IMG/VR virus record: IMGVR_UViG_3300049791_000041
Span: 1 to 27,198 of that record
Strand: one strand, 5' to 3'
DNA from: a virus
Length of the DNA: 27,198 nucleotides
In this document: piece by piece, positions 5,597 through 20,651 of the stretch
How positions within the stretch are numbered: position 1 is the first letter of the stretch
How the letters are laid out: each line of letters opens with the position of its first letter
Program-made: the position numbers and the translations under genes
Notes under the pieces: generated by a model
Told to the model about the DNA's origin: nothing
What the model saw: only the letters and a program-made list of their open reading frames with translations
Database searches by the model: none

Positions 5597-6064
5597 CTAA
5601 AACGGGATGTCGTCGTCCCCGAACGAGCCCCCGCCGAAGTCGTCACCGCCCGCGTCGGCATCGCCCCCGGTTCCGTTGCCGTTCGCGCGGTCGTACTCGC
5701 CGCCCGATCGCGACTCGGCCGATCGGTTGCCGCCGCCGAGAAGAATGATCTCGCTTGCCTTGATGTCGGTCGCGTACCGCTTGTCGCCGTTCGCGTCCTC
5801 CCACTGGCGATACTGGATCGAACCTTCGACGCAGATCGTGCGGCCCTTCGAGAGGATCTTGTTCAGCGCTTCGGCGCGCTTTCCCCAGACGATCACGGTG
5901 TGCCACTCGGTCGTCGACTTGCGCTCGTTGGACGCCTTATCGAAGTACGATTCCGTCGTCGCGAGACGCAGTTTCAGAACGGCTTGGCCACCTTGCGTGT
6001 ACTTCAGTTCGGGGTCGGCACCGAGGTTGCCGATCAGGATCACCTTGTTCATTCCATCGCTCAT
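5597..6064 (-). CDS. ssb: Single-stranded DNA-binding protein
   Basis: 155 residues. An OB-fold spans residues 5-110: MNKVILIGNLGADPELKYT at the start, then TTEWHTVIVWGKRAEALNKI, GRTICVEGSIQYRQWED and YATDIKASEIILL, all diagnostic of bacterial SSB. It is followed by a Gly/Asp-rich linker and the acidic tip DDDIPF that docks partner proteins. The ATG at 6064 overlaps the RecT stop (ATGA); MNKV at 6052 is an alternative start. Lying just after RecT, it most likely coats single strands made by the YqaJ nuclease during recombination and also serves replication. Confidence 0.96.
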   Translation of the reverse strand: MSDGMNKVILIGNLGADPELKYTQGGQAVLKLRLATTESYFDKASNERKSTTEWHTVIVWGKRAEALNKILSKGRTICVEGSIQYRQWEDANGDKRYATDIKASEIILLGGGNRSAESRSGGEYDRANGNGTGGDADAGGDDFGGGSFGDDDIPF

Positions 6065-7002
6065 CGCGAGCCTCGGTCGATCTCGTCGAGCGCGGCGCGG
6101 TCGGAGGGGGAGGGGTCGGAGGGATCGGAGACTGGCTCCGCTTCGACTTCGATCGAGTCCTCTTTCAGTCCGGCGCCGAGAAGCGCCTCACCGATCTCGG
6201 GCATCGCGAACGAGAGCGTGCGTCCCTGCTCTTGCGCTTCGTCCGCGACGACTGCGCGGATCATCTCGGGCGACTTCGGGATCCACTTGAAGAGGGCACG
6301 CACCGCGCTCTTCATCGCCATCGCCTCATAGTCGTCGTCCCACGGCGTCTTCACGCGGTTGCCGTCCGGGTACGTCTTGCCGCTCGCGCCACGCTTTCGG
6401 CGGGCCTCGATCTGAGGGAACGAGAGCACCCAGAAGATCGGCTCTTCGCCCTTCATCTCGGCGATCGCGTAGGCGTGCGTGACCGGCTGCTCTTCGCGAT
6501 CCGGGGCCGACGAAGGCTCGTGCTCCAGCCGCTGCTTCAGTCCGTGGCAGAAGTGGAAGACGTCGCCCTTGCGAACCACCATCGCGCGCACCGAGGCGAC
6601 GCGCCCCGATCGGTATGCCAATTCGATCATCCCGGCGTAGCCGATGATGAGTTGGCAGTTCATCTCGTACTTCTTCGTCTGCTTGTTGTAGGCGTTGTAC
6701 GGGACGAAGTACGCCATCCCGAGCGGGCCCGGCTCGAGTCCGAGCTGTGCGCTCGCAAGCACCGACGCCATGAATGATGCGGGAGTGCACTCGGCCAGCT
6801 TCGGCGTTGTCCGAAGCGACGTCAGGCATGCGCGCATCATGCGATCCGGGGTGACGTGCTTCGGGAGCGCGCGCGCGATCTCCGGTCCCATTTGCTGCAA
6901 GAGCGCCGGGAGTCCGCCCTCCTTCTTCGCCGTCGTGACACCGCCCGCCGCCCTCGGCTGAATCTGCCCCGAACCGTTCGTGGATGGACCTGACATGATC
7001 AC
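6061..7002 (-). CDS. recT: RecT-family single-strand annealing protein
   Basis: 313 residues with the RecT signature: LPKHVTPDRMMRACLTSLRT, then PASFMASVLASAQLGLEPGP, LGMAYFVPYNAY and CQLIIGYAGMIELAYRSGRV, followed by TPWDDDYEAMAMKSAVRALF and a helical end. RecT anneals complementary single strands and works with a 5'-3' exonuclease, here the YqaJ protein encoded just upstream. The GTG at 7002 gives a GTGA overlap with that gene; an ATG two codons later is equally possible because AAAGG precedes both. The C-terminus is rich in Glu/Ser/Pro, likely disordered. Confidence 0.95.
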   Translation of the reverse strand: MIMSGPSTNGSGQIQPRAAGGVTTAKKEGGLPALLQQMGPEIARALPKHVTPDRMMRACLTSLRTTPKLAECTPASFMASVLASAQLGLEPGPLGMAYFVPYNAYNKQTKKYEMNCQLIIGYAGMIELAYRSGRVASVRAMVVRKGDVFHFCHGLKQRLEHEPSSAPDREEQPVTHAYAIAEMKGEEPIFWVLSFPQIEARRKRGASGKTYPDGNRVKTPWDDDYEAMAMKSAVRALFKWIPKSPEMIRAVVADEAQEQGRTLSFAMPEIGEALLGAGLKEDSIEVEAEPVSDPSDPSPSDRAALDEIDRGSR

Positions 7003-7931
7003 GCTGCCTTTCGCTTGGATGGTTTCGCGCTCGCTCGGAGCACTCGGAACGTCGACTCTCTCGTCACGGACGCGGCGCGGGTCTGTGTGCGGTACGTATA
7101 CCCGCTGCCGTCATCGAAGCGGCCTTCGCTGGCCGAGCCGAGCGCGGCGATCACTTCGTTCTTCAGCCGTTGCTCGACGGATTCGAGACGCTTGATCTCG
7201 GCCCTCGTCGACTCCAGTTCGATCGCGAACTTGCGAAGGTCGTCCCCGAGCTCCACGACGCCGCCCGTCTCGGGATTCGCGACGGCGAACACGCGAGCCC
7301 ACTCGGGAGACGAGTCGATCGGGGGCATCTTGCCCGCCTCGACCAGCGCCCAGAAGCGCGAGCCCGCGAGAACGATCCGCGCGATGGCCGCTTCGTCGCG
7401 CTCGACGTCGCACCACACGAGCCGATTGCCGCCGATGGTGCACGCGACCGCTGCGCACGCCGCGCCCGTCACGAGCATCTGTGTTTGGACCTGGTAGCAG
7501 ACGCGCTCGGGAGGGCCGTCCTGCCACGTCTCCGCGCGGAATGCGTCGAGTCCCTTGACCTCGAGCGGGATGACGCCGTGAACCGGGTGGACCGTCGTAG
7601 CGTCGAGCGTCGCCATCGCCCACGGATGCGTCTTCGATCGGTACATCACGCCCGAGCGAGTCGCCTCACGCCCGGAGTAGTACGGCTTTGCGTACTCCGA
7701 GATCGTGATCGGCTCCATGACGTTGCCCCAGCGCACGCGCTCGACGTCATCGATCGATTCGGGCAGGCCGAGATCGCGCTTGGACGCCCAGACTTCGGCG
7801 GGGGAGAGGAATCCGCAGCCGAGGATCGACGGGATGTCCGACGCCCCGAGGCCGGTCGTGCGCGCGACAAGCCACGCGTCGCGATCGGACGAGTCGCATA
7901 CGATCTCGCAGTGGTCGAGGAAGTGGGTCAT
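6999..7931 (-). CDS. YqaJ-family viral recombinase (exonuclease)
   Basis: 310 residues. The YqaJ domain occupies roughly residues 15-205: WLVARTTGLGASDIPSILGC, VRWGNVMEPITISEYA, the active-site Asp in WAMATLDATTV, and the catalytic EVK in VIPLEVKGLDAF, followed by CYQVQTQMLVTG. These are the Glu/Asp/ExK/Gln positions of the lambda-exonuclease-like PD-(D/E)XK fold. The protein degrades one strand of duplex ends to give substrate for RecT, next in the operon. A C-terminal helical region (ELESTRAEIKRLESVEQRLK) is probably a coiled coil. It starts in an ATGA overlap with the ATPase gene. Confidence 0.95.
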   Translation of the reverse strand: MTHFLDHCEIVCDSSDRDAWLVARTTGLGASDIPSILGCGFLSPAEVWASKRDLGLPESIDDVERVRWGNVMEPITISEYAKPYYSGREATRSGVMYRSKTHPWAMATLDATTVHPVHGVIPLEVKGLDAFRAETWQDGPPERVCYQVQTQMLVTGAACAAVACTIGGNRLVWCDVERDEAAIARIVLAGSRFWALVEAGKMPPIDSSPEWARVFAVANPETGGVVELGDDLRKFAIELESTRAEIKRLESVEQRLKNEVIAALGSASEGRFDDGSGYTYRTQTRAASVTRESTFRVLRASAKPSKRKAA

Positions 7932-9256
7932 TCCGCCGCCTCCGCGCTCGCGACGATCTCGCCGTCCTCGATCACGACCCCGAGGGAATCGCCCTTGCCG
8001 ACGCGCTCGACGATGATCTGCAAACCCTCGTCCTCGGCGACCTTCGCAACGAGGGCGAGCGCGTCATCGTCCAGGAACGCGCCTTGGCGAACGAGCATGA
8101 GCCCGAGGTTCGGGTGCAGCGCAGCCCCGATCGAAATCGACGCGCGAAGCTGTTCGGCCTGCGACGCTTGATCGAACGGCAACCCGTCGAGCGTCACGCC
8201 ATCGTCGTCGATCGAGAGCCCTGCGAGCGGGAACTTCGCTTCGGCGAGAGCCTTCGCCTTCGCAGCGTCGGCGGCCGCAATCGCCACCGTCATGGCCTCT
8301 GCTTGCTCGCGACGCTTGGCGAGTTCTGCCTTCGTCTCGGCGTGTCGCGCGTTCGACCGGACCTTCGCGTTGATCGCGTCAGCCCCGGCGATGCGCGCTT
8401 CGACGGCCGCGACATCGGGCAGGAGCGAAGCTGCGGCTTCGGCCTTGGCCTCCTTCTCGCGGCCCGCGTTGTCGTGGTCCGTCGCCTCGGAAGTCATCTT
8501 CGCGCACGCCGCTTCGTACTTCGCGATCTGATTCTGGCGCTCGACGATCTCGGCGCGGAGCCGTTCGATCTCGACGAGGCCCGCGCCGGATCGCTCGTTC
8601 AACCGGCGAGCCTCGGAGCGGGACGCGTCGGCGTCGGCGAACATGCGCTGCACGTCGGCGTGCGCCGCGTTCGCGTCGCGCAGATCGGCGATGAGATCCG
8701 CGCTCGACACCTCCGCGTCCGGCGCGTCGTCGTACTTCGCGATCCCCGCGAGTTCGCCCTCCAAGCGCTTGACCTCGCGGTTGACGACAGTGCGCGAGTC
8801 GAACGCCTTGGCGCGATCCGCGTCGAGCCCGGAGAAGTCGAGGCCCGCGAGGCGTCGGAGGATCTCAGACTGGCGCTTCGGCTCGTAGCCGGTGAACGCG
8901 AGCGGGTCGAACGAGAGATCCCCGAGCAACGCGTCGAGCATCGACTGTGGGCTACCGTACTTCGCGCCGTCCTTGCTCTTGACGGTGAGCGTCGAGCCGT
9001 CGCCCTTGAAGACGCGCGTCACCACGTAGTCGGTCGTCTCGACCACGATCCGCGCAGACTCCGCGCCCTTGCGGATCGGCTTCGACGGGATCGAGTTCTT
9101 CCCGCCGAGCGCCGCCTCGATCGCGTCGAGCGTCGACGACTTGCCCTGACCATTGCGGCCCGAGACCGTTGTCACGCCCGCGTTCGGAGATAGGCTGATC
9201 GCGCGGACGCGCTTGAAGTTTTCGACTTCGAGACTGATCACTGATTGCTTGCCCAC
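7928..9256 (-). CDS. SbcC/RecF-like P-loop ATPase
   Basis: 442 residues. The N-terminal head carries VISLEVENFKRVRAISLSPN and the Walker A motif GRNGQGKSS at about residues 33-41. A long coiled-coil middle (about 130-320) follows, then the C-terminal head with the ABC signature-like QASQAEQLRASISIG and the Walker B region LGLMLVRQGAFLDDD. This is the arrangement of a compact SMC/SbcC-type ATPase, common beside RecT/YqaJ in phages and thought to help process DNA ends. I chose the GTG at 9256, four bases after AGGAGG; the GTG at 9241 (GTGA overlap) is the alternative. No SbcD-type nuclease gene is seen next to it. Confidence 0.9.
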   Translation of the reverse strand: MGKQSVISLEVENFKRVRAISLSPNAGVTTVSGRNGQGKSSTLDAIEAALGGKNSIPSKPIRKGAESARIVVETTDYVVTRVFKGDGSTLTVKSKDGAKYGSPQSMLDALLGDLSFDPLAFTGYEPKRQSEILRRLAGLDFSGLDADRAKAFDSRTVVNREVKRLEGELAGIAKYDDAPDAEVSSADLIADLRDANAAHADVQRMFADADASRSEARRLNERSGAGLVEIERLRAEIVERQNQIAKYEAACAKMTSEATDHDNAGREKEAKAEAAASLLPDVAAVEARIAGADAINAKVRSNARHAETKAELAKRREQAEAMTVAIAAADAAKAKALAEAKFPLAGLSIDDDGVTLDGLPFDQASQAEQLRASISIGAALHPNLGLMLVRQGAFLDDDALALVAKVAEDEGLQIIVERVGKGDSLGVVIEDGEIVASAEAAE

Positions 9257-9450
9257 GCTGCCTCCTGTGCCGCTTCCGGCCGAAACGATTTCGCGATCGA
9301 CGCGACCCACGCCGCGCCCATCGTCGGGTACTCGTTGCCCTCGAATCGGTAGACCGACTTCGATCCGCGCTTGATGCGATGGAAGACGCGGCCCCGAATC
9401 TCCGCGACGTCGACCGTTGGGATCGCAGTGGGTTGCCAGGGGATTTTCAC
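9238..9450 (-). CDS. Hypothetical protein, 70 aa
   Basis: The product starts (GTG) KIPWQPTAIPTVDVAEIRGR and has a beta-rich core FHRIKRGSKSVYRFEGNEYP, ending in a helix rich in Ala. The upstream extension is discarded: it is shadow sequence of two other genes. The GTG at 9450 forms a GTGA overlap with the tiny upstream gene. The core looks like a short phage protein that reports an amino-acid replacement value, but no family is assigned. Confidence 0.65.
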   Translation of the reverse strand: MKIPWQPTAIPTVDVAEIRGRVFHRIKRGSKSVYRFEGNEYPTMGAAWVASIAKSFRPEAAQEAAWASNQ

Positions 9451-10018: not shown

Positions 10019-10254
10019 GCTGCACCTCCGAAGTCCGCGAGCGCAGAGCGGAGGGCAACGCCGATCGGCGAGCCGTGGCGACGCGGGATGACCTCTCGAC
10101 CGTCGATGAAGCGGGCCATCTGGCAATCGTAGAGATCGCCGAGAAGCATCACGTCGGCGGACGATCCGACCGACTCGCGGCGGGCCGTTGCGCGGGCGTC
10201 GAGCGCCGAGACGCAAACGATGCGGGACGCTGGGGTGAGGACGCACCAGGTCAT
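10015..10254 (-). CDS. Hypothetical protein, 79 aa
   Basis: The product begins MTWCVLTPASRIVCVSALDA and ends with MARFIDGREVIPRRHGSPIG followed by a short helix. Predicted as small alpha/beta; no motif recognised. The ATG at 10254 overlaps the upstream stop by 4 nt. Confidence 0.65.
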   Translation of the reverse strand: MTWCVLTPASRIVCVSALDARATARRESVGSSADVMLLGDLYDCQMARFIDGREVIPRRHGSPIGVALRSALADFGGAA

Positions 10255-10631
10255 GAGGACACCGCCATCGATCCGTCCCGGAGCGCCGACCACGCCTCGT
10301 GCGCGGTCATGTCGCCGACGATGCGACCCGATGCGACGTCGTAGATCCGGCGCTTGCCGTAGGCGCCGCACTCGACGCTGGAGTACCCGCGAAGGGCGAG
10401 CGCCTCATGGAGGGTCGGGTCAGCCGGCTCGTCCAGTTTGCGCGTCACCGACCACTCGCCGCCCGCCCCGCCGTCGCGGTACGTCTGGCCCTCGGGCAGC
10501 GCGCGAAGGGCGGCGACCGTTTCGGCGTCGAGCGTCTCGTTGTCCGCGAGGAACGCCGAGAGCGTGGTCGTGATGATCTCGTCGTTGCAGACGATGATTG
10601 CGAAGTCGGGGGATGGGGAAGTCGTTGGCAC
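10251..10631 (-). CDS. First gene of the leftward operon, hypothetical, 126 aa
   Basis: Starts (GTG) PTTSPSPDFAIIVCNDEIIT and contains FLADNETLDAETVAALRALP and later SVECGAYGKRRIYDVASG. No family recognised. There is no other in-frame ATG/GTG for many codons, and the GTG at 10631 lies only seven bases past the -10 hexamer of the PL-like promoter, at the expected transcription start. The AGGGGG just before the GTG is too close to act as a normal ribosome site, so leaderless translation is likely. As the first gene expressed from PL, it would be among the earliest products after derepression. Confidence 0.75.
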   Translation of the reverse strand: MPTTSPSPDFAIIVCNDEIITTTLSAFLADNETLDAETVAALRALPEGQTYRDGGAGGEWSVTRKLDEPADPTLHEALALRGYSSVECGAYGKRRIYDVASGRIVGDMTAHEAWSALRDGSMAVSS

Positions 10632-10637: not shown

Positions 10638-10679
10638 GAGATAGTGACCCGAGACTACATCGTCAAGTCTCGGGACAAC
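10638..10679 (-). promoter_or_regulatory. PL-like promoter with overlapping operator
   Basis: On the minus strand: -35 TTGACG (10666-10661), 17-bp spacer, -10 TATCTC (10643-10638). On the plus strand a perfect 9-bp inverted repeat CCCGAGACT (10648-10656) / AGTCTCGGG (10666-10674) covers the spacer and -35. Viewed as direct repeats, two GTCYCGRG boxes lie 21 bp apart, two helical turns. Residues 10679-10647 match the element at 11557-11589 in 26 of 33 positions. It must drive the leftward operon and be controlled by the same regulator as PR. Confidence 0.82.
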
Positions 10680-10688
10680 GTTTTCGTG

Positions 10689-10970
10689 TCATGCACCAAA
10701 AATAGTTCCGGCGAGGGCCTCAGGGTCGCCGTCTTCGCCGCGCATGAGGAGCGCCAAGAAGGCCAACTCATGAGCGACGACCCGTCGCCGGTCCGCTTCT
10801 GGCAGGTCCCGATCGATCCAGATCGTGTCGTAGATGCAAAGGCCCACGGCCGATCCGGACTGGCGTACTCGAACGCGAAAACCCCACCGTCTTGCAACAA
10901 TCTCCGGATCGTGGCGTTCGCCAAGATGAAGGTTCACGGACTCCAGGAACCAACGTGCGACGTGCTGCAT
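10689..10970 (-). CDS. ImmA/IrrE-like protein with degenerate active site
   Basis: 93 residues: MQHVARWFLESVNLHLGERH, a strand segment (GFRVRVRQSGSAVGLCIYDT), IWIDRDLPEADRRR, then VVAHELAFLALLM and a final PEALAGTIFGA. The order matches the zinc metallopeptidase ImmA/IrrE core, including HE at residues 67-68 and a Glu in the PEALA segment. However, the second His of HEXXH is Phe (HELAF), and the usual downstream extension is missing. In the ImmR/ImmA type of switch this peptidase cuts the repressor, and here it lies directly downstream of the repressor gene. It has GGAGGG before its ATG. Peptidase activity is doubtful. Confidence 0.7.
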   Translation of the reverse strand: MQHVARWFLESVNLHLGERHDPEIVARRWGFRVRVRQSGSAVGLCIYDTIWIDRDLPEADRRRVVAHELAFLALLMRGEDGDPEALAGTIFGA

Positions 10971-11016
10971 TCGCCCTCCGAGGGTGAACGGCGTATCACG
11001 TCATAGGTGAGCGAGG

Positions 11017-11544
11017 CTACTTACCGCGCATCCTACGTACACGTACGGCGGCCGGGCCGTCTTGGACTCGGTCGCCGTTCAATGGGGTCAGATATTCGAT
11101 CGCGTTGATGAGGGCATACAGATCCTCCCGTGTCGCGGGCTCGAAAAGCTCGTACGGGATTGCGTGTAGCGCTTCCCTGTGGGGGCCTTCCACCGACTTC
11201 GCTGCAAGGGCGTTCTCGAGCTCGCGCCGCTCTCGCGCGGGAGGGCGTGCGCGGAAGGTATCGGGGTCGGGGTCGGGGCCGCCCGGATGGTCGAGGAAGT
11301 ACGCCGCGGAGATCTTGAAGGTCTTCATCGCCCCTTCGATCGCTTTGAGTCCGATCATGGTCCGCGTCCTGTCCATGAGACGACCGACGTAGCCCGCGTC
11401 AACTCCCATGCTCGTCGCGGTCTGGCGCGGGAATCCCCGCTCGCTCCCGTGCTTCTCGACGTGCTTCGCCTGCTCTACCTCGAGCAGGCGGACCAGGCGT
11501 CGAGCCGCCACGATGGAGCCATGTTCAGCCATGGCCGGAGGCAT
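11017..11544 (-). CDS. HTH repressor, CI/ImmR-type
   Basis: 175 residues. An XRE/Cro-like helix-turn-helix lies at residues about 38-63 (PRQTATSMGVDAGYVGRLMD), followed by KAIEGAMKTFKISAAYFLDH, the standard end of such domains. A Pro/Asp linker (GGPDPDPDTFRARPPARER) and a short helical C-terminus come after. There is no S24/LexA-type self-cleavage domain. It lies between the two matching operator elements and is transcribed toward PL. ATG 11544 is chosen because it falls eight bases after a CATAAT -10 box; ATG 11532 (MAEHG) is the alternative. Neither has a ribosome site. The likely role is lysogenic repressor of PL and PR. Confidence 0.8.
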   Translation of the reverse strand: MPPAMAEHGSIVAARRLVRLLEVEQAKHVEKHGSERGFPRQTATSMGVDAGYVGRLMDRTRTMIGLKAIEGAMKTFKISAAYFLDHPGGPDPDPDTFRARPPARERRELENALAAKSVEGPHREALHAIPYELFEPATREDLYALINAIEYLTPLNGDRVQDGPAAVRVRRMRGK

Positions 11545-11551
11545 AACGCAG

Positions 11552-11557
11552 ATTATG
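11552..11557 (-). promoter_or_regulatory. Possible -10 box of the repressor promoter
   Basis: CATAAT on the minus strand, eight bases before ATG 11544. No good -35 is present at 16-18 bp, where the operator boxes of PR lie instead, so the promoter would be weak and could be activated or blocked by protein bound there, as at lambda PRM. Inference only. Confidence 0.4.
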
Positions 11558-11598
11558 TTGTCTCGGGCCTTGACGATGTTGTCCCGAGGCCATATCAA
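11557..11598 (+). promoter_or_regulatory. PR-like promoter with overlapping operator
   Basis: -35 TTGACG (11570-11575), 17-bp spacer, -10 TATCAA (11593-11598). Two GTCYCGRG boxes 21 bp apart (CTCGGG at 11562-11567, CCCGAG at 11583-11588) flank the -35, one upstream and one in the spacer. The element is the counterpart of the one at PL in the opposite orientation. The ATG of the first rightward gene begins eight bases after the -10. Confidence 0.82.
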
Positions 11599-11605
11599 TC
11601 ACGAC

Positions 11606-11842
11606 ATGGCTCACGAACGACTCGCAGCATTCATGACGTGGATCGGCTGGAACGATTCCGAACTCGGTCGCCGGGTCCCGTGCCACCAGACCTACGCGCG
11701 CCATGTGCGACGCGGCGAGAAGCGGGCAGGCCTCGTCTTCGCCGTCGCCGTCGAGCGACTGACGACGGAATTCGCATGGCCTGACGGACCGATTCGCGCC
11801 GCCGAATGGCTCGACGTCGAGACCAAGTCTTCCGCCGCCTGA
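11606..11842 (+). CDS. Cro/YdaS-like HTH regulator, 78 aa
   Basis: First gene from PR. MAHERLAAFMTWIGWNDSEL, then GRRVPCHQTYARHVRRGEKR and FAVAVERLTTEFAWPDGPI. A small helix-turn-helix spans about residues 16-50, in the size and style of Cro or YdaS antirepressors. Its position opposite the repressor fits a Cro role: binding the same GTCYCGRG operators to turn off the repressor. There is no ribosome site and the ATG lies at the predicted transcription start, so a leaderless message is likely. The upstream in-frame extension is rejected because it reads through the promoter and the antisense of the repressor. Confidence 0.75.
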   Translation: MAHERLAAFMTWIGWNDSELGRRVPCHQTYARHVRRGEKRAGLVFAVAVERLTTEFAWPDGPIRAAEWLDVETKSSAA

Positions 11843-11911: not shown

Positions 11912-12841
11912 ATGAACACTTCCGAATCCCTGCCACGCGCCGCCAACCCCGGGAAGATCCGCGTCGGCGACATCGAACTCGACGTCTGCATCATCGCGGA
12001 TGGCACGCGAGTCGAGCGACTCATCACGCAGCGCGCGGCGCTGGCGCAACTCATGCCAGGCACGAAGCCGCGTGAAAAGCCCGCCGATGGCATGTCTGAT
12101 TTCCTGGTCGATTACGTCGCCAGAATCAGCGGAGCTGTCTTGATTCATGGCGGATCGAGCATGCCTCATTTCTCGCCGGTGCGCTTCGTTCACCCGAGCA
12201 ACGGCAAGCCCGCGATCGGCTACCGAGGCGAAGACTTCATCGCGGTCTGCAAGTTCATGCTCCGTGCTCGCCGTCTCGATGCACTCACGCTCCCGCAACT
12301 CCGCGTTGCTGAACGCGCCGAAGTGATCGTCGAGTCGTTCGCCGAACTCGGCGTGGTCGCGCTCATCGACGAAGCCACGGGCTACCAGCGCGAGCGCGGA
12401 TCCGATGCGCTGCAACGCATCCTCGATCGGCTCATCGCGTCGAAGGCGCAACCGTACGAGGTTCGATTCAAGAAGGAATTCTACGAGGAGATTTGCCGTC
12501 TTCGCGGGTGGGAATTCGATCCATCGAATCCGGCCGGGGGCTTCGCGCACCTCACCAACAACATCGTGTATTCGCGCCTCGCCCCGGGAGTGCTCGACGC
12601 GCTTCGCGAAGCCGATCCGCTCGTTGCCCCCGGAGTGCGCGAGCGGAAGTTGCACCAACACCTCTCCGCTGACGAAGGCGTCCGACTTCTCGACGCGCAC
12701 ATCAACAGCGCGATCGAACTCGCGAAGGGTGCCGGAAGTTGGCCCGCGTTCATGCGCTCGATCGATCGGCGCTTCCCGAAGTACGGCACGCAGGGCTGCC
12801 TGCCCGTGATGGCCGAAGACATCGGGGACGCCGCCGAATGA
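11912..12841 (+). CDS. P63C-domain phage protein
   Basis: 309 residues. The first 60 are variable (VGDIELDVCIIADGTRVERL), then DFLVDYVARISGAVLIH and NGKPAIGYRGEDFIAVCKFM. The P63C domain (about residues 185-275) is recognised by KKEFYEEICRLRGWEFDPSN, the VYSRLAPGVLDALREADP segment, RKLHQHLSADEGVRLLDAHI and AGSWPAFMRSIDRRFP. VVALIDEATGYQRER, just before the domain, is also typical of the family. These proteins are widespread in phages and prophages near the regulatory region; their function is not established. Normal length and intact. Confidence 0.88.
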   Translation: MNTSESLPRAANPGKIRVGDIELDVCIIADGTRVERLITQRAALAQLMPGTKPREKPADGMSDFLVDYVARISGAVLIHGGSSMPHFSPVRFVHPSNGKPAIGYRGEDFIAVCKFMLRARRLDALTLPQLRVAERAEVIVESFAELGVVALIDEATGYQRERGSDALQRILDRLIASKAQPYEVRFKKEFYEEICRLRGWEFDPSNPAGGFAHLTNNIVYSRLAPGVLDALREADPLVAPGVRERKLHQHLSADEGVRLLDAHINSAIELAKGAGSWPAFMRSIDRRFPKYGTQGCLPVMAEDIGDAAE

Positions 12842-12849
12842 TCCTCCGC

Positions 12850-13107
12850 TCACGTCTCCCTTCCGATCTTGGCTCGCGCTTGCCCATCTGGCGCGAGGGG
12901 ATTCCGAGTCGATTCCTCGATTCCTCGACGGACATCCGCGTCCCATTTGCCCGCGAACTCCACGCGCTGCCCGATGCGCAGCCCGTCGATCTCATGCGTG
13001 ACGATCGCGAAGGGCGTGTGCGCGAAACGCGCGCCGCACAGGCACTCGATCTCGGACTCCGAGACGTGGGTGCAGATGCCGCAGATCAGATGCGTGAGGG
13101 TTTGCAT
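12850..13107 (-). CDS. Minus-strand Cys-pair protein inside the rightward operon, 85 aa
   Basis: Starts MQTLTHLICGICTHVSESEI and has a CxxC (9-12) plus ECLCGARF (CxC about 24-26), a zinc-knuckle arrangement. The rest is a compact beta/alpha sequence (FAIVTHEIDGLRIGQRVEFA). G/C at third positions is about 90 % in its first 55 codons, well above the antisense frame, which argues for coding on this strand. It fits exactly between the P63C stop and the next plus-strand start. No ribosome site or clear promoter is seen before its ATG, and a plus-strand ORF (12838-13152) with coupled overlaps at both ends competes. Confidence 0.55.
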   Translation of the reverse strand: MQTLTHLICGICTHVSESEIECLCGARFAHTPFAIVTHEIDGLRIGQRVEFAGKWDADVRRGIEESTRNPLAPDGQARAKIGRET

Positions 13108-13151
13108 GACCAGAGTTTGGCAACGGAATCAACCCTTGGGGAGGTGTGGTG

Positions 13152-13511
13152 ATGGATTCGAAAACGCCTGAACAAATGCGTACGGATTGGCGCGTCGAGT
13201 TGTCGAAGCTGCTCTACGCGTGGCTGCCCGAGAGCCGACTGACGCATCGCCAGTTCGCGGATCTCGTTGGCGTCTCCGAGCAGAAGGTTCAGCGGTGGTG
13301 CGACCATCGCAACAAGGAAGTCCCGAGCCTCTCCGATGTGCGGCTGTTCCCGCGCGACCTCGCGGCCAAGGCGTTCCGCTCGCTCGCGGCCCTCATCGAA
13401 GCATCGAAGACCGACGATGACGCGAAGGCCATCCTCGCCATGCCGTTCTACTCGCGCGTCATCCGCAACCGCCCGCGACTGAAGGCGATGCTCGTTGGGG
13501 GTGCGTCGTGA
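13152..13511 (+). CDS. HTH DNA-binding protein, 119 aa
   Basis: MDSKTPEQMRTDWRVELSKL leads into LTHRQFADLVGVSEQKVQRW with CDHRNKEVPSLSDVRLFPRD: a helix-turn-helix at about residues 32-55 where the second helix is SEQKVQRWC. The C-terminal half is helical (LAALIEASKTDDDAKAILAM). The start is the ATG at 13152, seven bases after GGGGAGG; two in-frame GTG codons upstream are too close to it. By position it may be a CII- or replication-type regulator, but this is inference. Confidence 0.75.
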   Translation: MDSKTPEQMRTDWRVELSKLLYAWLPESRLTHRQFADLVGVSEQKVQRWCDHRNKEVPSLSDVRLFPRDLAAKAFRSLAALIEASKTDDDAKAILAMPFYSRVIRNRPRLKAMLVGGAS

Positions 13512-13810
13512 TCCCCTTTCGCAAACACCTCGACCTTCTCGGTATGCGCGTCCGCGATCGCGTCACCGGGTACACCGGAGTCGTCGCCTCGATCTCATTC
13601 GACCTGTACGGATGCGTGCAGGCCATCGTGAACCCTGGCCTCGACAAGGACGGCAAGCCGATGGATTCGGGTTGGTTCGACGTCGGCCGCCTCGAGGTTG
13701 CCGATCCGACTCCGGTGATGGACCGCCCGAGTTTCGACTGGACGCCGGAAGCGATCGCGAGCGGACGCAAGGGACCGGCCGAGAAGCCGAAGCGCGGAGG
13801 GATCGCGTGA
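13508..13810 (+). CDS. Phage protein with KOW-like LGMRVRDRVTGYTG motif, 100 aa
   Basis: Contains LLGMRVRDRVTGYTGVVASI followed by SFDLYGCVQAIVNPGLD and GWFDVGRLEV. This compact beta-rich pattern is shared by many small phage proteins of unknown function and looks like an SH3/KOW barrel. The GTG at 13508 overlaps the previous stop (GTGA). The basic C-terminal tail (KGPAEKPKRGGIA) is probably flexible. Confidence 0.75.
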   Translation: MIPFRKHLDLLGMRVRDRVTGYTGVVASISFDLYGCVQAIVNPGLDKDGKPMDSGWFDVGRLEVADPTPVMDRPSFDWTPEAIASGRKGPAEKPKRGGIA

Positions 13811-14370
13811 CCCTCCAACCGATCCATCTGGCCCTCGCCACCTTCATCGTCGGCCTCACCCTCGACCAGTGCTCCCCCGGCTTGCCCGCTCATGCGCAGG
13901 CTCCCGACGTCGGGCTGATGCTCGCTCGCGTGTTCGTTTCCGAGTCCGGCTTCGATGGCGCTGCGGACCATCTGCCGATCGCGAACTACACGCGGAGCCT
14001 CGCTCGGTACTGGCGCGTCCCGATGGGCGTCGCTCTGCCACGTCGCTACACCCGAGCCCTCGCGCCCGAGTCGGAACGACGAAGCCGACCGTGGCTCGCG
14101 AACCTCATGCGCAACGGGGCCGAACCGAGGTCGTGGCCACACGGCCCGAACTCGCAACCGTGGCCGGAGCGTCGTCAGCAATGGCTCGACACGTTGGCTC
14201 GCGCGGATGCGTTCCTCGCTGGCGAAGTCGATGCGCCTCCGGGCTGTCGTCCGCATTCGTGGGGGTCGCCGGAGTACGACCGCGAAGCCATCGAATCGAC
14301 CATCGCGAACGGCGGATTCGTCATCGACTGCGGACCAACCAAGAACGTTTTCCTGAGGTGGCATCCATGA
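13807..14370 (+). CDS. Putative exported hypothetical protein, 187 aa
   Basis: The N-terminus (GTG) TLQPIHLALATFIVGLTLDQ followed by CSPGLPAHAQA is a probable signal sequence with an AxA-type cleavage site near residue 31; the Cys could instead mark a lipobox, which is weak. The mature part has LARVFVSESGFDGAADHLPI, repeated Trp/Pro patches (SWPHGPNSQPWPERRQQWLD), CRPHSWGSPEYD and a final VIDCGPTKNVFLRW. The Glu-containing SESGF segment near the start of the mature part recalls the catalytic SESG of lytic transglycosylases, but the rest of that fold is not evident. Cell-envelope action is plausible; function unproven. Confidence 0.7.
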   Translation: MTLQPIHLALATFIVGLTLDQCSPGLPAHAQAPDVGLMLARVFVSESGFDGAADHLPIANYTRSLARYWRVPMGVALPRRYTRALAPESERRSRPWLANLMRNGAEPRSWPHGPNSQPWPERRQQWLDTLARADAFLAGEVDAPPGCRPHSWGSPEYDREAIESTIANGGFVIDCGPTKNVFLRWHP

Positions 14371-14666
14371 GCAAAACCAACTGCCCAGAAACGCTCGCGA
14401 AGACAACCGACGATCAGAAAGCGTTCCTCGCCAATCTCGCGGAGTCGTTCGTCGCGATGATGAACACACCGCCGCTCGCACCAAACTACATCGAATTCAC
14501 GATGGTTGGCGCGGACGGGCTGCCCGCGTGCTTCATCGAACTGCGACGCCCCGAAGCAATGCGCGTCATCGACAAGTTGGCGAAGGCCGAAGCGGAAGTG
14601 GAGCGACTTCGCGGCGTGCTCGCTTCGGTTGGCAAACTCGCCGACCAGCGATGGGGTGCCCGATGA
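14367..14666 (+). CDS. Hypothetical protein with C-terminal coiled coil, 99 aa
   Basis: MSKTNCPETLAKTTDDQKAF, then YIEFTMVGADGLPACFIELR and a charged helix VIDKLAKAEAEVERLRGVLA. The start overlaps the previous stop (ATGA) with GAGGTGG seven bases upstream. No family recognised. Confidence 0.7.
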   Translation: MSKTNCPETLAKTTDDQKAFLANLAESFVAMMNTPPLAPNYIEFTMVGADGLPACFIELRRPEAMRVIDKLAKAEAEVERLRGVLASVGKLADQRWGAR

Positions 14667-14914
14667 TCTCCCCCTCCCCCGAATCCATCGCAGCCGATCG
14701 CGGCATGCGCCGTGACGCCTCCTACGTCCGCGAAGGCGAGACGCGCGACGGCGTGAAGTGGACCGCGACGTTCCTAGAAGATCGCGCCGCGTTCGTCTGC
14801 GGAACGATCGAGCACCACTTCCTCACCCACGAGCAAGCCAACGCGATCTGCCTCTGGGCGAACGCGGTGAATGTCGAAGGCGTCGAAGCGGCGATTGCGA
14901 GGGTGATCGGATGA
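14663..14914 (+). CDS. Hypothetical protein, 83 aa
   Basis: Starts MISPSPESIAADRGMRRDAS; the centre EGETRDGVKWTATFLEDRAA is beta-like and the end THEQANAICLWANAVNVEGV helical. ATGA overlap with the upstream gene. No family recognised. Confidence 0.65.
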   Translation: MISPSPESIAADRGMRRDASYVREGETRDGVKWTATFLEDRAAFVCGTIEHHFLTHEQANAICLWANAVNVEGVEAAIARVIG

Positions 14915-15147
14915 CCGGCTCTTCTTTCACCACCCGCGACGGCCTCGCCATCGCATGGGCCGAGGGCTCACGAATCGGCGTCTACGCGACGGGACCAAGC
15001 GAGGACGCGGCGATCATCACCGCGCGCGAGACGGTGCGATTCCTCGAGTCGCAGACCGAAGTGGAGGGGTTCCACCGGACGCAAGTCAGCGCGGGGCGAG
15101 CGGTCACAAATGGCCCAGTGCGCCGAGCGGCTTGGAGGGTGCGATGA
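14911..15147 (+). CDS. Hypothetical protein, 78 aa
   Basis: MTGSSFTTRDGLAIAWAEGS, then RIGVYATGPSEDAAIITARE and a basic C-terminus. Small alpha/beta protein, ATGA-coupled to both neighbours; precedes the deoxyribosyltransferase-like gene. Function unknown. Confidence 0.65.
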   Translation: MTGSSFTTRDGLAIAWAEGSRIGVYATGPSEDAAIITARETVRFLESQTEVEGFHRTQVSAGRAVTNGPVRRAAWRVR

Positions 15148-15566
15148 CCGAACTTCTCAAGGTCGCGCTCGCGGGGCCGAGCGCCGATCTGTCGCGTTGC
15201 GAATCGGCTGTCTGGGCGCTGCGCAAGTTCGCGATCGTCACCGAGGATTGGCCGGCGAAGGTCCGTCGCAACCGCGACGCAAACATCACCGACGCGATGC
15301 TCTCGCCCACCGAGCGGCTCATCGCGCGCCGTGAATGCGAGTGCGGGATTCGCGAATCGAACGTCGTCCTGTGGCTCGCGGCCGGCAGCGAAGGCGCCTC
15401 GTACGAGTGCGGACTCGCGGAGGGCATCGGCCGCCCGATCGTCGTCGCCGGAACGAAGCGGCACCCGATCTACGGCGAGACGATCGAGGACTCGGTGCGC
15501 TTCGATACGGACGATATGGCGATCGCGTATTTGCGCGGCATCGCCGAGAGGATGGCGAAGTCGTGA
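15144..15566 (+). CDS. Nucleoside 2-deoxyribosyltransferase-like protein
   Basis: 140 residues. LLKVALAGPSADLSRCESAV opens a Rossmann-like fold; then DANITDAMLSPTERLIARRE, SNVVLWLAAGSEGASYECGL and AEGIGRPIVVAGTKRHPIYG. The order (strand, substrate loop, 'S-D/N-V-V' strand, Gly-Ala-Ser-x-Glu loop, 'G(R/K)PIVV') matches the nucleoside 2-deoxyribosyltransferase superfamily, with Glu88 in the position of the usual nucleophile. Members exchange or hydrolyse bases on deoxynucleosides, and phage relatives are common. Next to an SNF2 helicase and methyltransferase, a role in nucleotide supply or base modification is possible. Fold call fairly sure; substrate unknown. Confidence 0.75.
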   Translation: MTELLKVALAGPSADLSRCESAVWALRKFAIVTEDWPAKVRRNRDANITDAMLSPTERLIARRECECGIRESNVVLWLAAGSEGASYECGLAEGIGRPIVVAGTKRHPIYGETIEDSVRFDTDDMAIAYLRGIAERMAKS

Positions 15567-16978
15567 GAAAGAAAGCAACCAAACCGAGCACGTATCAGGA
15601 CTTCGTTTCGACGAAGCTCGTGCGTACCCCTCCGGTCGGATTCGACGCGACGGTCGACGACGATCACCTGTTCCCGTTCCAACGCGATCTCGTTCGGTGG
15701 GCTCTCGCTCGCGGACGGTGCGCGATCTTCGCGTCGACCGGACTCGGCAAGTCGCGGATGCAAGCGACATGGGCCGCGCGCGTGGCGCATCACGTCGAGC
15801 GTCCCGTGCTCATCCTCGCCCCGCTCGCGGTGGCTCGGCAGACGGCGGACGAGGGCGCGAAGATCGGGATTCGAGTCACGGTCTGCCGTGAGCAGTCGGA
15901 CGTGCAACCCGGCGTCAACATCACGAACTACGACCGGATCCACCTGTTCGACCCCTCGGCGTTCGGCGGCGTCGTTCTCGACGAGTCGAGCATCATCAAG
16001 CATCACACCGCGAAGACGCTTGCGACCTTGATCGAGTCGTTCGGTGACACGCCGTTCAAGTTGTGCTGCACCGCGACGCCATCGCCGAATGACTACGTGG
16101 AACTCGGCACGCACGCGGAGTTTCTCGGCATCTGTTCGCGTGCCGAGATGCTCGCCGAGTACTTCGTGCACGACGGCGGCGAGACGCAGAAGTGGCGACT
16201 GAAGGGCCACGCACGATCGGTGTTCTGGCGGTTCGTCGCATCATGGGGTGCGCTCGTCCGGTCGCCCGAGGATCTTGGCTACGACGGGTCCGCGTACGTC
16301 CTGCCGAAACTCACCGTCACGCATCACACGATCGCGGCGAGCGAAGAGTCGGTGCGTGAGTCGGGCCTCTTGTTCGCCGCCCCGGCGAGCGGACTCATGG
16401 AGCGACGCGCGGCCCGCAAGGGGAGCATCGGCGATCGGGTCGCCCAGTGCGCCGAGCTCGTGAACTCGACCACCGAGCCGTTTGTTGTGTGGTGCGATCT
16501 GAATGCGGAGTCCGACGCGCTCGCAAAAGCCATCCCGGACGCCGTCGAGATTCGCGGCTCGATGACGAGCGAAGAGAAGGAAGCCGCGCTCATCAAGTTC
16601 GCGTCGGGCGATGCGCGCGTTGTGATCAGCAAGTGCTCGATCACGGGGTTCGGCCTCAACTGGCAGCACTGCGCGCGCATGGCGTTCGTCGGCGTCACCG
16701 ACTCGTGGGAGGCGTACCACCAAGCGACCAAGCGCATCCATCGATTTGGGCAGAGGCGCGAGTGTGAAGTGCACGTATTCGCGTCGGAGCTTGAAGGCGC
16801 CGTCATCGCGAACCTGGCGCGCAAGGAACGCGACGCGGCGGCGATGGCTGAGGAGCTTTCGCGCGAGGCGGGCGAGAGCGTTCGTGAGGCGGTTCGCGGC
16901 TCGCGGCGCATCTCGAATTCGTACGAGGCAACCAAGGTGATGACGATCCCGTCGTGGATCGTCGAGGAGGCAGCATGA
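15563..16978 (+). CDS. SNF2-family helicase/ATPase
   Basis: 471 residues. Q-like motif HLFPFQRDLVRWALARG, Walker A ASTGLGKSRM (about 57-66), motif Ia VLILAPLAVARQT, motif II VVLDESSIIK (DESS at 140-143), motif III CCTATPSPNDYVELG (about 168-182), and in the second lobe ISKCSITGFGLNWQHC and the arginine-finger motif ATKRIHRFGQRRE (about 388-400). This is the compact phage SNF2/DEAD-like helicase. It probably translocates on duplex DNA; phages often place it beside a DNA methyltransferase, as here. The GTG at 15563 overlaps the previous stop (GTGA). Confidence 0.92.
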   Translation: MRKKATKPSTYQDFVSTKLVRTPPVGFDATVDDDHLFPFQRDLVRWALARGRCAIFASTGLGKSRMQATWAARVAHHVERPVLILAPLAVARQTADEGAKIGIRVTVCREQSDVQPGVNITNYDRIHLFDPSAFGGVVLDESSIIKHHTAKTLATLIESFGDTPFKLCCTATPSPNDYVELGTHAEFLGICSRAEMLAEYFVHDGGETQKWRLKGHARSVFWRFVASWGALVRSPEDLGYDGSAYVLPKLTVTHHTIAASEESVRESGLLFAAPASGLMERRAARKGSIGDRVAQCAELVNSTTEPFVVWCDLNAESDALAKAIPDAVEIRGSMTSEEKEAALIKFASGDARVVISKCSITGFGLNWQHCARMAFVGVTDSWEAYHQATKRIHRFGQRRECEVHVFASELEGAVIANLARKERDAAAMAEELSREAGESVREAVRGSRRISNSYEATKVMTIPSWIVEEAA

Positions 16979-17154
16979 GTCGGATGGGGTCAACGGAACG
17001 GTACGAGGGATCTGGCTCTGGCCTGATCAACGCGTCGCTCGATCTTCTCGAATTGCTCGACGGCTTCCTGCCGCCCGAGTCGTCCGAGGAATCGCTCGAC
17101 GTTCACAATGTCCGCATGGCGATGCGCGATTTGCGAGCGGAGGTGAAATCGTGA
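16975..17154 (+). CDS. Small acidic protein, 59 aa
   Basis: MSRMGSTERYEGSGSGLINA followed by an acidic helix SLDLLELLDGFLPPESSEES and a final AMRDLRAEVKS. It is ATGA-coupled to the SNF2 gene and GTGA-coupled to the methyltransferase gene, so it may be a partner of one of them. No family recognised. Confidence 0.65.
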   Translation: MSRMGSTERYEGSGSGLINASLDLLELLDGFLPPESSEESLDVHNVRMAMRDLRAEVKS

Positions 17155-18092
17155 AGGTGCTCAACCAGCTCGTCGGCGATCGCTTCGCCGCCTACCACGG
17201 CGACTCGTGCGAGGTGCTCAAGGGCATCCCATCGAACTCGGTCCACTACTCGATCTTCTCGCCGCCGTTCTCGTCGCTCTACACCTACTCGGCGTCCGAG
17301 CGCGACATCGGCAACGTGAAGGACGACGAAGAATTCTTCCGGCACTTCGCGTTCATGATCCCCGAACTCTTCCGAGTGCTGAAGCCGGGTCGTCTGCTTT
17401 CGATGCACTGCATGCTCCTGCCGACGTCGAAGGAACGGCACGGATTCATCGGCCTCAAGGACTTTCGCGGCGACCTTATCCGCGCATTCCAGGCGGCCGG
17501 ATTCATCTTCCATTCGGAGGTGTCGATCTGGAAAGACCCCGTGACGGCGATGCAGCGGACGAAGGCGCTCGGTTTGCTCCACAAGACGATCCGCAAGGAC
17601 TCGGCGATGAGCCGCCAGGGCATCAACGACTACCTCGTGACGATGCGCAAGCCTGGCGCGAACGACGAACCCATCGCGCACACAGCGGAGGAATTCCCCG
17701 TCGCGCTCTGGCAGCGCTACGCGTCTCCGGTGTGGGTGACGACGAGCGGGTACGACCCGGATGGATTCGGGATCTGCGCGCCCGACATCGATCCGGGCGA
17801 CACGCTCCAGTATCGCAGCGCTCGTGAGAACGATGACGAGAGGCACATCTGCCCCCTGCAACTTGAAGTCATTCGGCGCGCGGTTCGACTCTGGACGAAC
17901 CCGAACGACGTCGTGCTCTCGCCGTTCGGTGGCATCGGATCCGAAGGCGTCGTCGCGCTCGAGGAGGGCCGCCGCGCGTGCCTCATCGAATTGAAGAAGT
18001 CCTACTACGAGCAGATGGCTCGCAACCTCTCGGCGGCGTCGCCGTCAGGAACCAAACAACTCGACATGTTCTCGATGGAGGCGGCCCAGTGA
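17151..18092 (+). CDS. DNA methyltransferase (N4-cytosine/N6-adenine type)
   Basis: 313 residues. Catalytic motif IV is SPPF (about 37-40) in the context SVHYSIFSPPFSSLYTYSAS. The motif X/I block near the C-terminus reads WTNPNDVVLSPFGGIGSEGV (SPFGGIGSEG about 257-266) followed by the acidic LIELKKSYYEQM. Motif IV before motif I is the beta-class order, and S-P-P-F is usual for N4-cytosine enzymes, though N6-adenine is possible. The middle (DFRGDLIRAFQAAGFIFHSE) is the target-recognition area. The GTG at 17151 overlaps the previous stop. It probably protects phage DNA from host restriction; no cognate nuclease of a restriction pair is obvious. Confidence 0.92.
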   Translation: MKVLNQLVGDRFAAYHGDSCEVLKGIPSNSVHYSIFSPPFSSLYTYSASERDIGNVKDDEEFFRHFAFMIPELFRVLKPGRLLSMHCMLLPTSKERHGFIGLKDFRGDLIRAFQAAGFIFHSEVSIWKDPVTAMQRTKALGLLHKTIRKDSAMSRQGINDYLVTMRKPGANDEPIAHTAEEFPVALWQRYASPVWVTTSGYDPDGFGICAPDIDPGDTLQYRSARENDDERHICPLQLEVIRRAVRLWTNPNDVVLSPFGGIGSEGVVALEEGRRACLIELKKSYYEQMARNLSAASPSGTKQLDMFSMEAAQ

Positions 18093-19168
18093 AGTTCACG
18101 ATCCAAAAGAAGGAATTGCTCCGAGTCACCACCATCGCCGCCGGATCGGTCGCGAAGAAATCGGCGACCCCCGCGCTCGGGAACGTGAAGATCGATGCTC
18201 GCGCGTCGGTGTCATTCTCGGGCACGGATCTTGTGACGGGCGCGCACGTCGTCGCCGATGCGAAGGTCGACAAGCCAGGGGCCACGCTCGTTCCCGCAAC
18301 GCAATTCCTCGCGGCGGTTCGTGGTCTCGCGGACGGTGAAGTCACCGTGACGATCGACGGCGGACGCGTCGAGATGCGGAGCGGCAAGAGCAAGCAGCGG
18401 GTCGTCAACTCCGACGCGGATGACTACCCGACGCTCCCGAAGTGCGACGACTCGCGCCTCGTGGACGTGCCCGCCGCGACTCTCGCGGGCTGCATCGCAA
18501 CGGTGGCGCACGCGATGAGTACGGACGAGTCGCGCGCACACCTCGCGGGTATCTTCCTGACGCACAAGGGAGGCAAGATCCGCGCGGTCGCGACGAACGG
18601 CCACACGCTCGCACAGTCCGACGCGGCGTGTCCCGTTGGTGTCGAGGTGCTCATCCCGTCGCAGTCTGTGAGCGAGATTCGCAAGGCTCTCGCGGGCGCG
18701 GAAACGGCCAGCATCGCGACGCACGACGGGATGCTTTTCGTTCGCGTCGCGGGCACCACGATCTCGGCAAAGCTCACGGGCGATACGTTCCCCGCCGCGT
18801 ACGAGCAACTCATCCCGACGAAGCCCGACCATCGTCCGATCGTTGCGCGCGAGGCGATGCTCGACGCCGTCAAGCGCGTGATGAGCACGGCGGACGGCGA
18901 CTCCGTTTTCGAGCTTCGACTCTCGGACGGACAGATCGCGCTCGCGTTCCACAGCAAAGACGGCGGGGAGGCTGCGGATGTTGTCGAATGTGACTACGCC
19001 GGATCCGGCATCGCCCTGGGCATTCGTGGCGCGTACGCGATCCTTGCGATCGCGGCGCTCGATTCCGACGACATCGCGATCGAAATGGGCAACGAACTCG
19101 CTCCGGTGATGTTCGTGGCGGCTCACTCGCGCGACACGATCCAACTCGTCATGCCGAGCCGGTTGTGA
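18089..19168 (+). CDS. dnaN: DNA polymerase III beta sliding clamp
   Basis: 359 residues, the full three-domain length. Evidence: FTIQKKELLRVTTIAAGSVA, then TPALGNVKIDARASVSFSGT, DADDYPTLPKCDDS, the second domain HLAGIFLTHKGGKIRAVATN followed by GHTLAQSD, LIPSQSVSEIRKAL, and the third domain LTGDTFPAAYEQLIPTKPDH, ending in QLVMPSRL, the usual MPxRL-type C-terminus that forms part of the partner-binding pocket. A phage-encoded clamp would load the host Pol III or a phage polymerase onto phage DNA. GTGA overlap with the methyltransferase. Confidence 0.95.
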   Translation: MKFTIQKKELLRVTTIAAGSVAKKSATPALGNVKIDARASVSFSGTDLVTGAHVVADAKVDKPGATLVPATQFLAAVRGLADGEVTVTIDGGRVEMRSGKSKQRVVNSDADDYPTLPKCDDSRLVDVPAATLAGCIATVAHAMSTDESRAHLAGIFLTHKGGKIRAVATNGHTLAQSDAACPVGVEVLIPSQSVSEIRKALAGAETASIATHDGMLFVRVAGTTISAKLTGDTFPAAYEQLIPTKPDHRPIVAREAMLDAVKRVMSTADGDSVFELRLSDGQIALAFHSKDGGEAADVVECDYAGSGIALGIRGAYAILAIAALDSDDIAIEMGNELAPVMFVAAHSRDTIQLVMPSRL

Positions 19169-19846
19169 TCGCCGCGCAGGAGATTCTCGTGGATGGGTTC
19201 TGTGGCGGTGGCGCTGCCGACGTCGACTCGTTCGCGGCGGGTTACTCCGAGGTTCCGCGGCTTCGCGCTCGAGACTACGCCGTGACGGTCGCTCCGTTCT
19301 CCGAAGCCCGAGCGTTCATCGTCGAGCACCACTACGCGCGCGGAGCATCGAACACGGCGAGCGTGTGCCACGGACTGTACCGGGGGGGGGCAACTCGTGG
19401 GCGCGGCGCTCTGGCTCCCGCCGACTCGCGTTTGCGCCGAGTCCGTAGCTGGCCCGTCATGGCGAACGTGCCTCTCGCTCTCGAGGCTCGCTGTGCATCC
19501 TGACGTTCCGAAGAACGGCGCCTCGTTCCTTGTCGGCCGGTCGATCCGACTCATCCGCCAAGGGCGACGCTGGACGCATCTCGTCACCTTCGCAGACGAG
19601 TCGCAGGGTCACGCTGGCGGCATCTATCGCGCGACCAACTGGACGTACGTGGGCCGCACGAAACCGGAGGCGCGGTTCGTCGACGGGTCGGGTAAGCAAG
19701 TGGCTCGCAAGGCCACGACGTCGCGCACTCGAGCGCAGATGGAAGCGATCGGGTGTCGCATGGTCGGTCGGTTCTCGAAGCACAAATTCGTGATGGCGCT
19801 GACCGAAGCAAACACCCGCCCCGCAGATCGGGAGGTGGCGGCGTGA
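19165..19846 (+). pseudogene. mom: Mom-family DNA modification protein, frame broken at a G9 tract
   Basis: The N-terminal half is in frame from GTG 19165 (ARDYAVTVAPFSEARAFIVE then HHYARG). The C-terminal half is in the next frame: LSRLAVHPDVPKNGASFLVG, THLVTFADESQGHAGGIYRA, TNWTYVGRTKP. Together they match the Mom family, GNAT-like enzymes that convert adenine to N6-(1-acetamido)adenine (methylcarbamoyl-type). The two frames join at nine G (19382-19390): with eight G the reading is LYRGGQLVGAALWLPPTR, unbroken. Either the base run is miscounted, or the gene is off, phase-variable, or rescued by slippage. Residues 6-12 (ILVDGFC) resemble a C5-methyltransferase start and may not belong to Mom. 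Confidence 0.85.
19382..19390 (+). repeat. G9 homopolymer in the Mom gene
   Basis: Nine consecutive G on the plus strand at codons for Arg-Gly-Gly; one base too many for a continuous Mom frame. I see no other G or C run this long among the coding sequences I read closely (a run of eight C is at 26007-26015). Confidence 0.85.
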
Positions 19847-20364
19847 ACCACTCTCAACTCTGCATCCTCGCATGTCGGTGGCTCGTGAAATCACAGCGGT
19901 GCATCCATGCATTCGCTGACGTAACGACAATGAACGTGTTTGAGTTTCCCGACGCCATCGGCTATCGGAACTCGCTTCACAAGATCACGATCGTGGTCGA
20001 GGTCAAAACCTCAGTCGCCGACTTCAAGCGCGACGCCCACAAGCCATGGCGGCGGATCGCTGCGGGTGGTTGTGGCGGGATGGGGCGCCTCCGGTACTAC
20101 CTCGTGCCGGAAGGGCTCATCACGCCCAGTGATATCCCGGACGACCACGGACTGCTCTACGCGAAAGCGGACGGGAAGATCCGCGTCGTTCGCGACGCCC
20201 CTCCACGCGAGAACCGAGACGCCGACTCCGAGCTTTCGATCCTCTCCACGATGATGCGCCGGCACGCGCTCGGCATTCCGTGGATCGCTGAGCAATTCCG
20301 ATTTGAGACGACGCTTGAAACCAAGCGGCGGACGGCGCCGGAGAAGCGGGAGGTGGCGGCGTGA
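19843..20364 (+). CDS. PD-(D/E)XK nuclease-fold protein, 173 aa
   Basis: MNHSQLCILACRWLVKSQRC, then FPDAIGYRNSLHKITIVVEV and KTSVADFKRDAHKPWRR; the pattern P-D37 ... E53-V-K55 is the PD-(D/E)XK active-site signature, and GGMGRLRYYLVPEGLITPSD plus DDHGLLYAKADGKIRVVRD follow. This family is widespread in phages; a nuclease role is predicted from the fold but has not, to my knowledge, been defined for it. The GTG at 19843 overlaps the Mom stop (GTGA). The GGAGGTGGCGGC leader that precedes it is repeated almost exactly before the next gene. Confidence 0.75.
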   Translation: MNHSQLCILACRWLVKSQRCIHAFADVTTMNVFEFPDAIGYRNSLHKITIVVEVKTSVADFKRDAHKPWRRIAAGGCGGMGRLRYYLVPEGLITPSDIPDDHGLLYAKADGKIRVVRDAPPRENRDADSELSILSTMMRRHALGIPWIAEQFRFETTLETKRRTAPEKREVAA

Positions 20365-20651
20365 GTAGCAATCAAACGGAGGTTCCCATGGAAGCGATGA
20401 CCGGTCTTCAGCGCGCCCAAGAGGCGATGCGTTTGCGACGTGAGCAGGGGATCGAAGTGGAGCGGCTCGACCCGATCGAGAAGGCGCGACGCAACCCGAA
20501 GTCTCTGCGCCTCGCGATCAACGCGAAGTGCTGGGATTGCCAGGGCGCGCAGTCGGATCCGGGTGTGCGCGAGCGCATCGGAGCGTGTCCTATCTCGGTG
20601 TGTTCGCTGCATCCGGTGCGGCCGTATCAACGCGGGGGTGAGGAGGGATGA
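20361..20651 (+). CDS. Zinc-knuckle phage protein, 96 aa
   Basis: LRLAINAKCWDCQGAQSDPG, then RERIGACPISVCSLHPVRPY: a CxxC / CxxxxC pair with the Leu-His-Pro-Val-Arg-Pro-Tyr ending typical of a small phage family found beside replication genes. GTG 20361 (GTGA overlap, GGAGG six bases upstream) or ATG 20388 (its own GGAGG) may be the start; I prefer the first for coupling. Function unknown. Confidence 0.8.
   Translation: MSSNQTEVPMEAMTGLQRAQEAMRLRREQGIEVERLDPIEKARRNPKSLRLAINAKCWDCQGAQSDPGVRERIGACPISVCSLHPVRPYQRGGEEG

Follow-up and report, generated by a model that had tools for sequence, protein, structure and literature searches.

A putative lambda-like switch with a phage-specific operator in an IMG/VR virus record

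Two promoter-like elements in opposite orientation enclose a candidate repressor gene in the IMG/VR virus record IMGVR_UViG_3300049791_000041, and this arrangement raises the question of whether the locus is the immunity region of a phage organized like lambda and, if so, which protein occupies its operators. In lambda, the immunity region has the order OL/PL, rex, cI, OR/PRM/PR and cro. The window analyzed here is the whole stretch of 27,198 nucleotides (positions 1 to 27,198 of the record), and the features discussed below are collected in Table 1.

Table 1. Coordinates of the features in and around the putative switch (positions of the window unless a locus is named)
Feature	Position	Strand	Remark
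PL recombination block	5597..9310	-	AAA ATPase, YqaJ/RecE-like exonuclease, RecT, SSB
First PL-operon gene (P0004)	10251..10631	-	GTG start 6 nt after -10; probably leaderless
PL promoter/operator element	10638..10679	-	-35 TTGACG 10666-10661, 17-bp spacer, -10 TATCTC 10643-10638
PL spacer operator GTGACCCGAGACTA	10644..10657	.	Between -35 and -10; centre about -19.5 of GTG at 10631
PL upstream operator AAGTCTCGGGACAA	10665..10678	.	Top score of the four; centre about -40.5 of GTG at 10631
Short M78/IrrE-ImmA-like protein (P0002)	10689..10970	-	HELAF in place of HEXXH
Candidate repressor (P0001), 175 aa	11017..11544	-	Weak HTH GFPRQTATSMGVDAGYVGRLMDRTR; no S24 or other domain match
Putative PRM -10 CATAAT, 5/6	11552..11557	-	Poor -35; repressor ATG 7 nt downstream
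PR promoter/operator element	11557..11598	+	-35 TTGACG 11570-11575, 17-bp spacer, -10 TATCAA 11593-11598
PR upstream operator TTGTCTCGGGCCTT	11558..11571	.	Centre -41.5 of PR, -20.5 of putative PRM
PR spacer operator TTGTCCCGAGGCCA	11579..11592	.	Centre -20.5 of PR, -41.5 of putative PRM
Cro-like 78-aa HTH protein (P0003)	11606..11842	+	First PR-operon gene; probably leaderless
PR operon	11912..23142	+	P63C protein, CII-like, helicase, methyltransferase, beta clamp, DnaD-like loader, DnaB
CII-like HTH regulator	13146..13511	+	PR operon; phrog_4779, phrog_191, Phage_CII weak
Mirror elements in other phage loci	L150:3004-4208, L088:3992-6084, L089:4817-5955		GTAGC palindromes or TTGACT, unrelated sequence

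The mirror elements and their operators

Read in the direction of their own transcription, PL (GTTGTCCCGAGACTTGACGATGTAGTCTCGGGTCACTATCTC, leftward) and PR (GTTGTCTCGGGCCTTGACGATGTTGTCCCGAGGCCATATCAA, rightward) are identical at 26 of 33 positions, and at 31 of 40 when 10640-10679 is compared with 11557-11596. The two intergenic gaps compared with each other in 1000 dinucleotide shuffles gave maxima of 20/33 and 23/40, and the control on the 1-kb region gave maxima of 24/33 and 27/40 (100 shuffles). PL and PR form the single best inverted 40-mer pair in the whole window among arms at least 60 bp apart. The bare score of 26/33 was also reached by two other pairs when the 27 kb window was compared all-against-all with itself; without context this score is therefore not unique in the window, and it is the position of the elements and the extension to 40 bases that carry weight. 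The PL and PR of lambda itself scored 26/33 in the same comparison.

An earlier note on this DNA had described two GTCYCGRG boxes in each promoter, 21 bp apart. The number and the spacing were borne out, and each box is better read as part of a near-palindromic 14-bp operator, TTGTCYCGRGACAA, of which there are four, two per promoter. The coordinates of the two elements, their 26/33 identity, the TTGACG at the same place, the 17-bp spacer and the TATC-type -10 (TATCTC and TATCAA) likewise proved correct on re-measurement. On the other hand, the boxes do not cover the -35 as had been suggested: in PL as in PR, one operator shares two bases with the -35, the first two of the hexamer, and the other lies within the spacer. 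The repressor gene indeed lies between the two arms, but not as the sole occupant, as a second gene (10689-10970) is found there too.

The 8-mer GTCYCGRG by itself occurs 10 times in the window, against 10.4 times expected, and so shows no enrichment. The palindrome TTGTCYCGRGACAA, allowing up to 3 mismatches, was found in the 27 kb window at the four sites in PL and PR only. Confined to the two promoter gaps, these sites are the best matches of the window scan; they also rank as its top four by a weight matrix, a ranking that is circular and descriptive only, as the matrix was built from them. No third operator was found near PL or PR in the window scan, leaving two sites per promoter. Separately, a weaker operator-like site, AAGTCCCGAGCCTC, was noticed at 13318 inside the CII-like gene, and a search for CII-type TTGC-N6-TTGC sites found none. 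The operator letters gave only unrelated matches among the literature matches listed. The operator can be called new, as the earlier note had it; yet this is expected for a new immunity group, since every phage immunity group has, to our knowledge, its own operator.

Promoter geometry and gene arrangement

The candidate repressor and the Cro-like gene diverge from a 61-bp gap (11545-11605) with overlapping promoters, of which PRM was recognized by a -10 only. The cro and repressor genes start at 11606 and 11544, and the centres of the two PR operators fall at 11564.5 and 11585.5; measured from either start codon, one of the operators is thus at -20.5 and the other at -41.5. Both central operators would accordingly be placed to serve PR and PRM symmetrically, and the poor -35 of PRM is as expected of an activator-dependent promoter.

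The promoter match was 9/12 for PR, whose -10 ends 7 nt before the start codon, and 8/12 for PL, where this distance is 6 nt. At random places in the window, the chance of such a match at that spacing was 0.00025 for PR and 0.0017 for PL, and no other gene among the 23 tested for a promoter at leaderless spacing exceeded 6. A simple sigma-70/terminator scan returned no matches at its threshold. Shine-Dalgarno sequences are absent from the three promoter-proximal genes (starts at 11606, 10631 and 11544) and present in several inner genes (10970, 13146, 17151 and 20648). The lack of a Shine-Dalgarno sequence, together with the distance of only 6-7 nt from the -10 to the start codon, suggests that the mRNAs of all three promoter-proximal genes are probably leaderless. 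Leaderless mRNAs have precedents in lambda cI and the CI-like PaaR2 (PMC8630535), as well as in PY54 cI and cro (PMC4488713).

Judging from codon usage, the genes left of the switch run nearly all leftward and those right of it nearly all rightward, the exceptions being a few short doubtful ORFs. Recombination genes lie on the PL side, and the CII-like gene, whose match is weak (E 0.0057 in PHROG, 0.016 in Pfam), lies with the replication genes downstream of cro. Besides these genes, the PL operon carries a phage-borne tRNA-Trp (CCA) gene (5495-5568, minus strand) and a gene for a pentapeptide-repeat protein (4725-5471, minus strand). The early operon on the right encodes the phage's own DNA polymerase III beta clamp (18089-19168, plus strand), neighboured by an N6/N4 DNA methyltransferase (17151-18092) and a SNF2-type helicase.

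Candidate operator-binding proteins

We ranked 293 ORFs of the window with an HTH profile built here, in which the CII-like gene came first, the Cro-like protein P0003 second and the candidate repressor P0001 third. P0003 scored 12.5 bits, a value attained by none of 2000 shuffles, while the score of P0001 was weak (7.3 bits, with 3 shuffles out of 2000 as high). P0001 matched no family in Pfam, PHROG or NCBIfam, and its structure model, with a pLDDT of 39, was not used. The model of the Cro-like protein is helical (pLDDT 71); this protein had no library match, and Foldseek with its model gave no clear match. The position of 11017-11544 and its weak HTH signal support, but do not prove, its assignment as the repressor. 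As no S24 autocleavage domain was detected in it, it is unlikely to mediate SOS induction by cleaving itself.

The second gene between the arms encodes an M78-like protein and is probably cotranscribed with the repressor. Its M78 match is below the cut-off (E 0.0067 in Pfam, 4e-5 in PHROG), and it carries HELAF, in which the second His of HEXXH is missing; the matches in other loci read HELGH, HEQAH and HELVH at this place. A single sequencing error was discarded as the cause of HELAF, since the change from His to Phe at this TTC codon takes two base changes. The missing His and the short length make proteolysis by this protein doubtful. It is possibly a non-proteolytic antirepressor and, though its motif is broken, the best candidate for the inducer.

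The stronger HTH signal of P0003 invites another reading, in which the mirror elements serve the Cro-like protein alone, early genes are autorepressed without true lysogeny, and 11017-11544 is accessory. No integrase was recognized among the proteins scanned, which fits this reading; the record is, however, a fragment. Moreover, 11017-11544 takes the cI position: it diverges from cro, and a -10 of its own overlies these operators. Its location upstream of the ImmA-like gene and opposite the CII-like gene suggests a maintained repressor. We regard the Cro-like protein acting alone as improbable. Some phages borrow host LexA as a regulator, and duplicated phage promoters with palindromic boxes read by a host regulator, rather than by a phage repressor, would agree with boxes flanking the -35, as with many host repressors, and with the weak support that the phage repressor draws from its sequence. 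Nevertheless, the site is flanked by a pair of phage HTH genes, and the exact, fully specified pattern of the operator pair matched no viral contig (0 matches), so that a host regulator appears very improbable. Chance likeness of two GC-rich intergenic stretches, in favor of which the unenriched 8-mer and the two further 26/33 pairs could be cited, is effectively refuted by the shuffles, the top-ranking 40-mer and the promoter-spacing statistics, with -35, spacer, -10 and start codons all in register, and deserves next to no weight.

Altogether, we consider it highly likely, judging from sequence, that the region is the immunity region of a lambda-organized phage, in which a repressor dimer, most likely of the 11017-11544 product, would bind the four TTGTCYCGRGACAA operators.

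Comparison with known switches and proposed mechanism

Pattern searches in viral contigs retrieved no relatives for the repressor, the Cro-like protein or the P63C protein, a tblastn search of phages with the repressor and the M78-like protein as queries found none, and blastn of the switch region gave no match. P0001, P0003 and P0004 had no relatives in the collections searched, and P0002 had marginal partial matches only. Alignment-based searches with the P63C protein and the AAA ATPase recovered 160 viral and 80 genome loci, at only about 26-51% identity, and none of these loci contained a homologous switch or operator. Mirror 40-mers scoring at least 31 occurred in 7 of 162 viral loci retrieved for distant relatives of the neighbouring genes, vs. 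0 after shuffling. In three of the seven (L088, L089 and L150), the elements are of the TTGAC type or GTAGC palindromes and resemble mirrored promoter/operator pairs; those of L150 surround a divergent Cro-like/repressor pair. Thus, the architecture recurs with unrelated operator sequences.

The proposal of the earlier note that this is a lambda-like switch gains support from gene order, strands, promoter geometry, operator palindromes, and the placing, as in lambda, of the CII-, Cro- and recombination-like genes. As in lambda, divergent PL and PR with related, opposed operators at and beside the -35 are mirrored around the repressor and a further gene, the repressor and Cro-like genes diverge with the latter first in the PR operon, a CII-like gene follows, and recombination and replication genes lie to the left and right, respectively. 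In contrast to lambda, there are two operators of different sequence per promoter instead of three, the repressor is shorter and without a detected S24 domain, the arms are about 0.9 kb apart (2.3 kb in lambda), and all three first genes appear to be leaderless. The three-operator OR and OL of lambda itself were not found here; operator number does not define lambdoid switches. We take the region, on the present analysis, to be supported as a lambdoid switch with a phage-specific operator.

ImmR/ImmA repressor-metalloprotease modules are known from ICEBs1 and phi105. The order of a small repressor gene and an IrrE/ImmA-like gene in one operon is similar here, whereas the 10689-10970 protein is short, carries HELAF without the second His and lacks the HEXXH metalloprotease domain that a module of this type requires. 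The immB regions of PY54, N15 and phiKO2 share with the present locus, where the repressor and Cro-like mRNAs are probably leaderless, the leaderless cI and cro of PY54 (PMC4488713) and the two OL operators of N15, but N15 has three operators between repressor and cro, and the sequences are unrelated. The PaaR2/YdaS/YdaT system of CP-933P has a divergent CI-like/Cro-like pair, a CII analogue, a leaderless repressor mRNA and a PRM activated by the repressor PaaR2 (PMC8630535), features that the switch described here would share. The CP-933P repressor operon contains a toxin-antitoxin pair in contrast to the M78-like protein in this phage.

In the lysogenic state that we propose, repressor dimers would sit, perhaps cooperatively, on all four operators, two each at PL and PR and on one helix face given the 21-bp distance. 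Bound in the spacer between -35 and -10 and just upstream of the -35, they would turn off both divergent early operons. The dimer at 11579-11592, at -41.5 from the repressor start, could activate PRM, as CI does in lambda when bound at OR2. The other operator, 11558-11571, lies at -20.5 inside PRM, and its occupation by the Cro-like protein, or by the repressor when abundant, would turn PRM off. Repressor bound at PL and at PR, about 0.9 kb apart, could bridge the two and form a loop, as lambda CI loops the DNA between OL and OR (PMC5880393). A more specific version, i.e., a minimal lambda-like switch with two operators twofold-symmetric for PR and PRM (-20.5/-41.5), three leaderless transcripts, and induction by a protease-dead M78 homologue that would unseat the repressor through binding rather than cleavage, is put forward tentatively, and we hold it to be rather unlikely in this full form.

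This phage, for whose switch proteins no relatives could be detected, repeats the mirror layout of lambda; its operator specificity is new, and its design, with two operators, is apparently simpler. The locus would offer a compact system for studying the minimum number of operators needed for bistability, and whether ImmA-like proteins that have degenerated can act without proteolysis.
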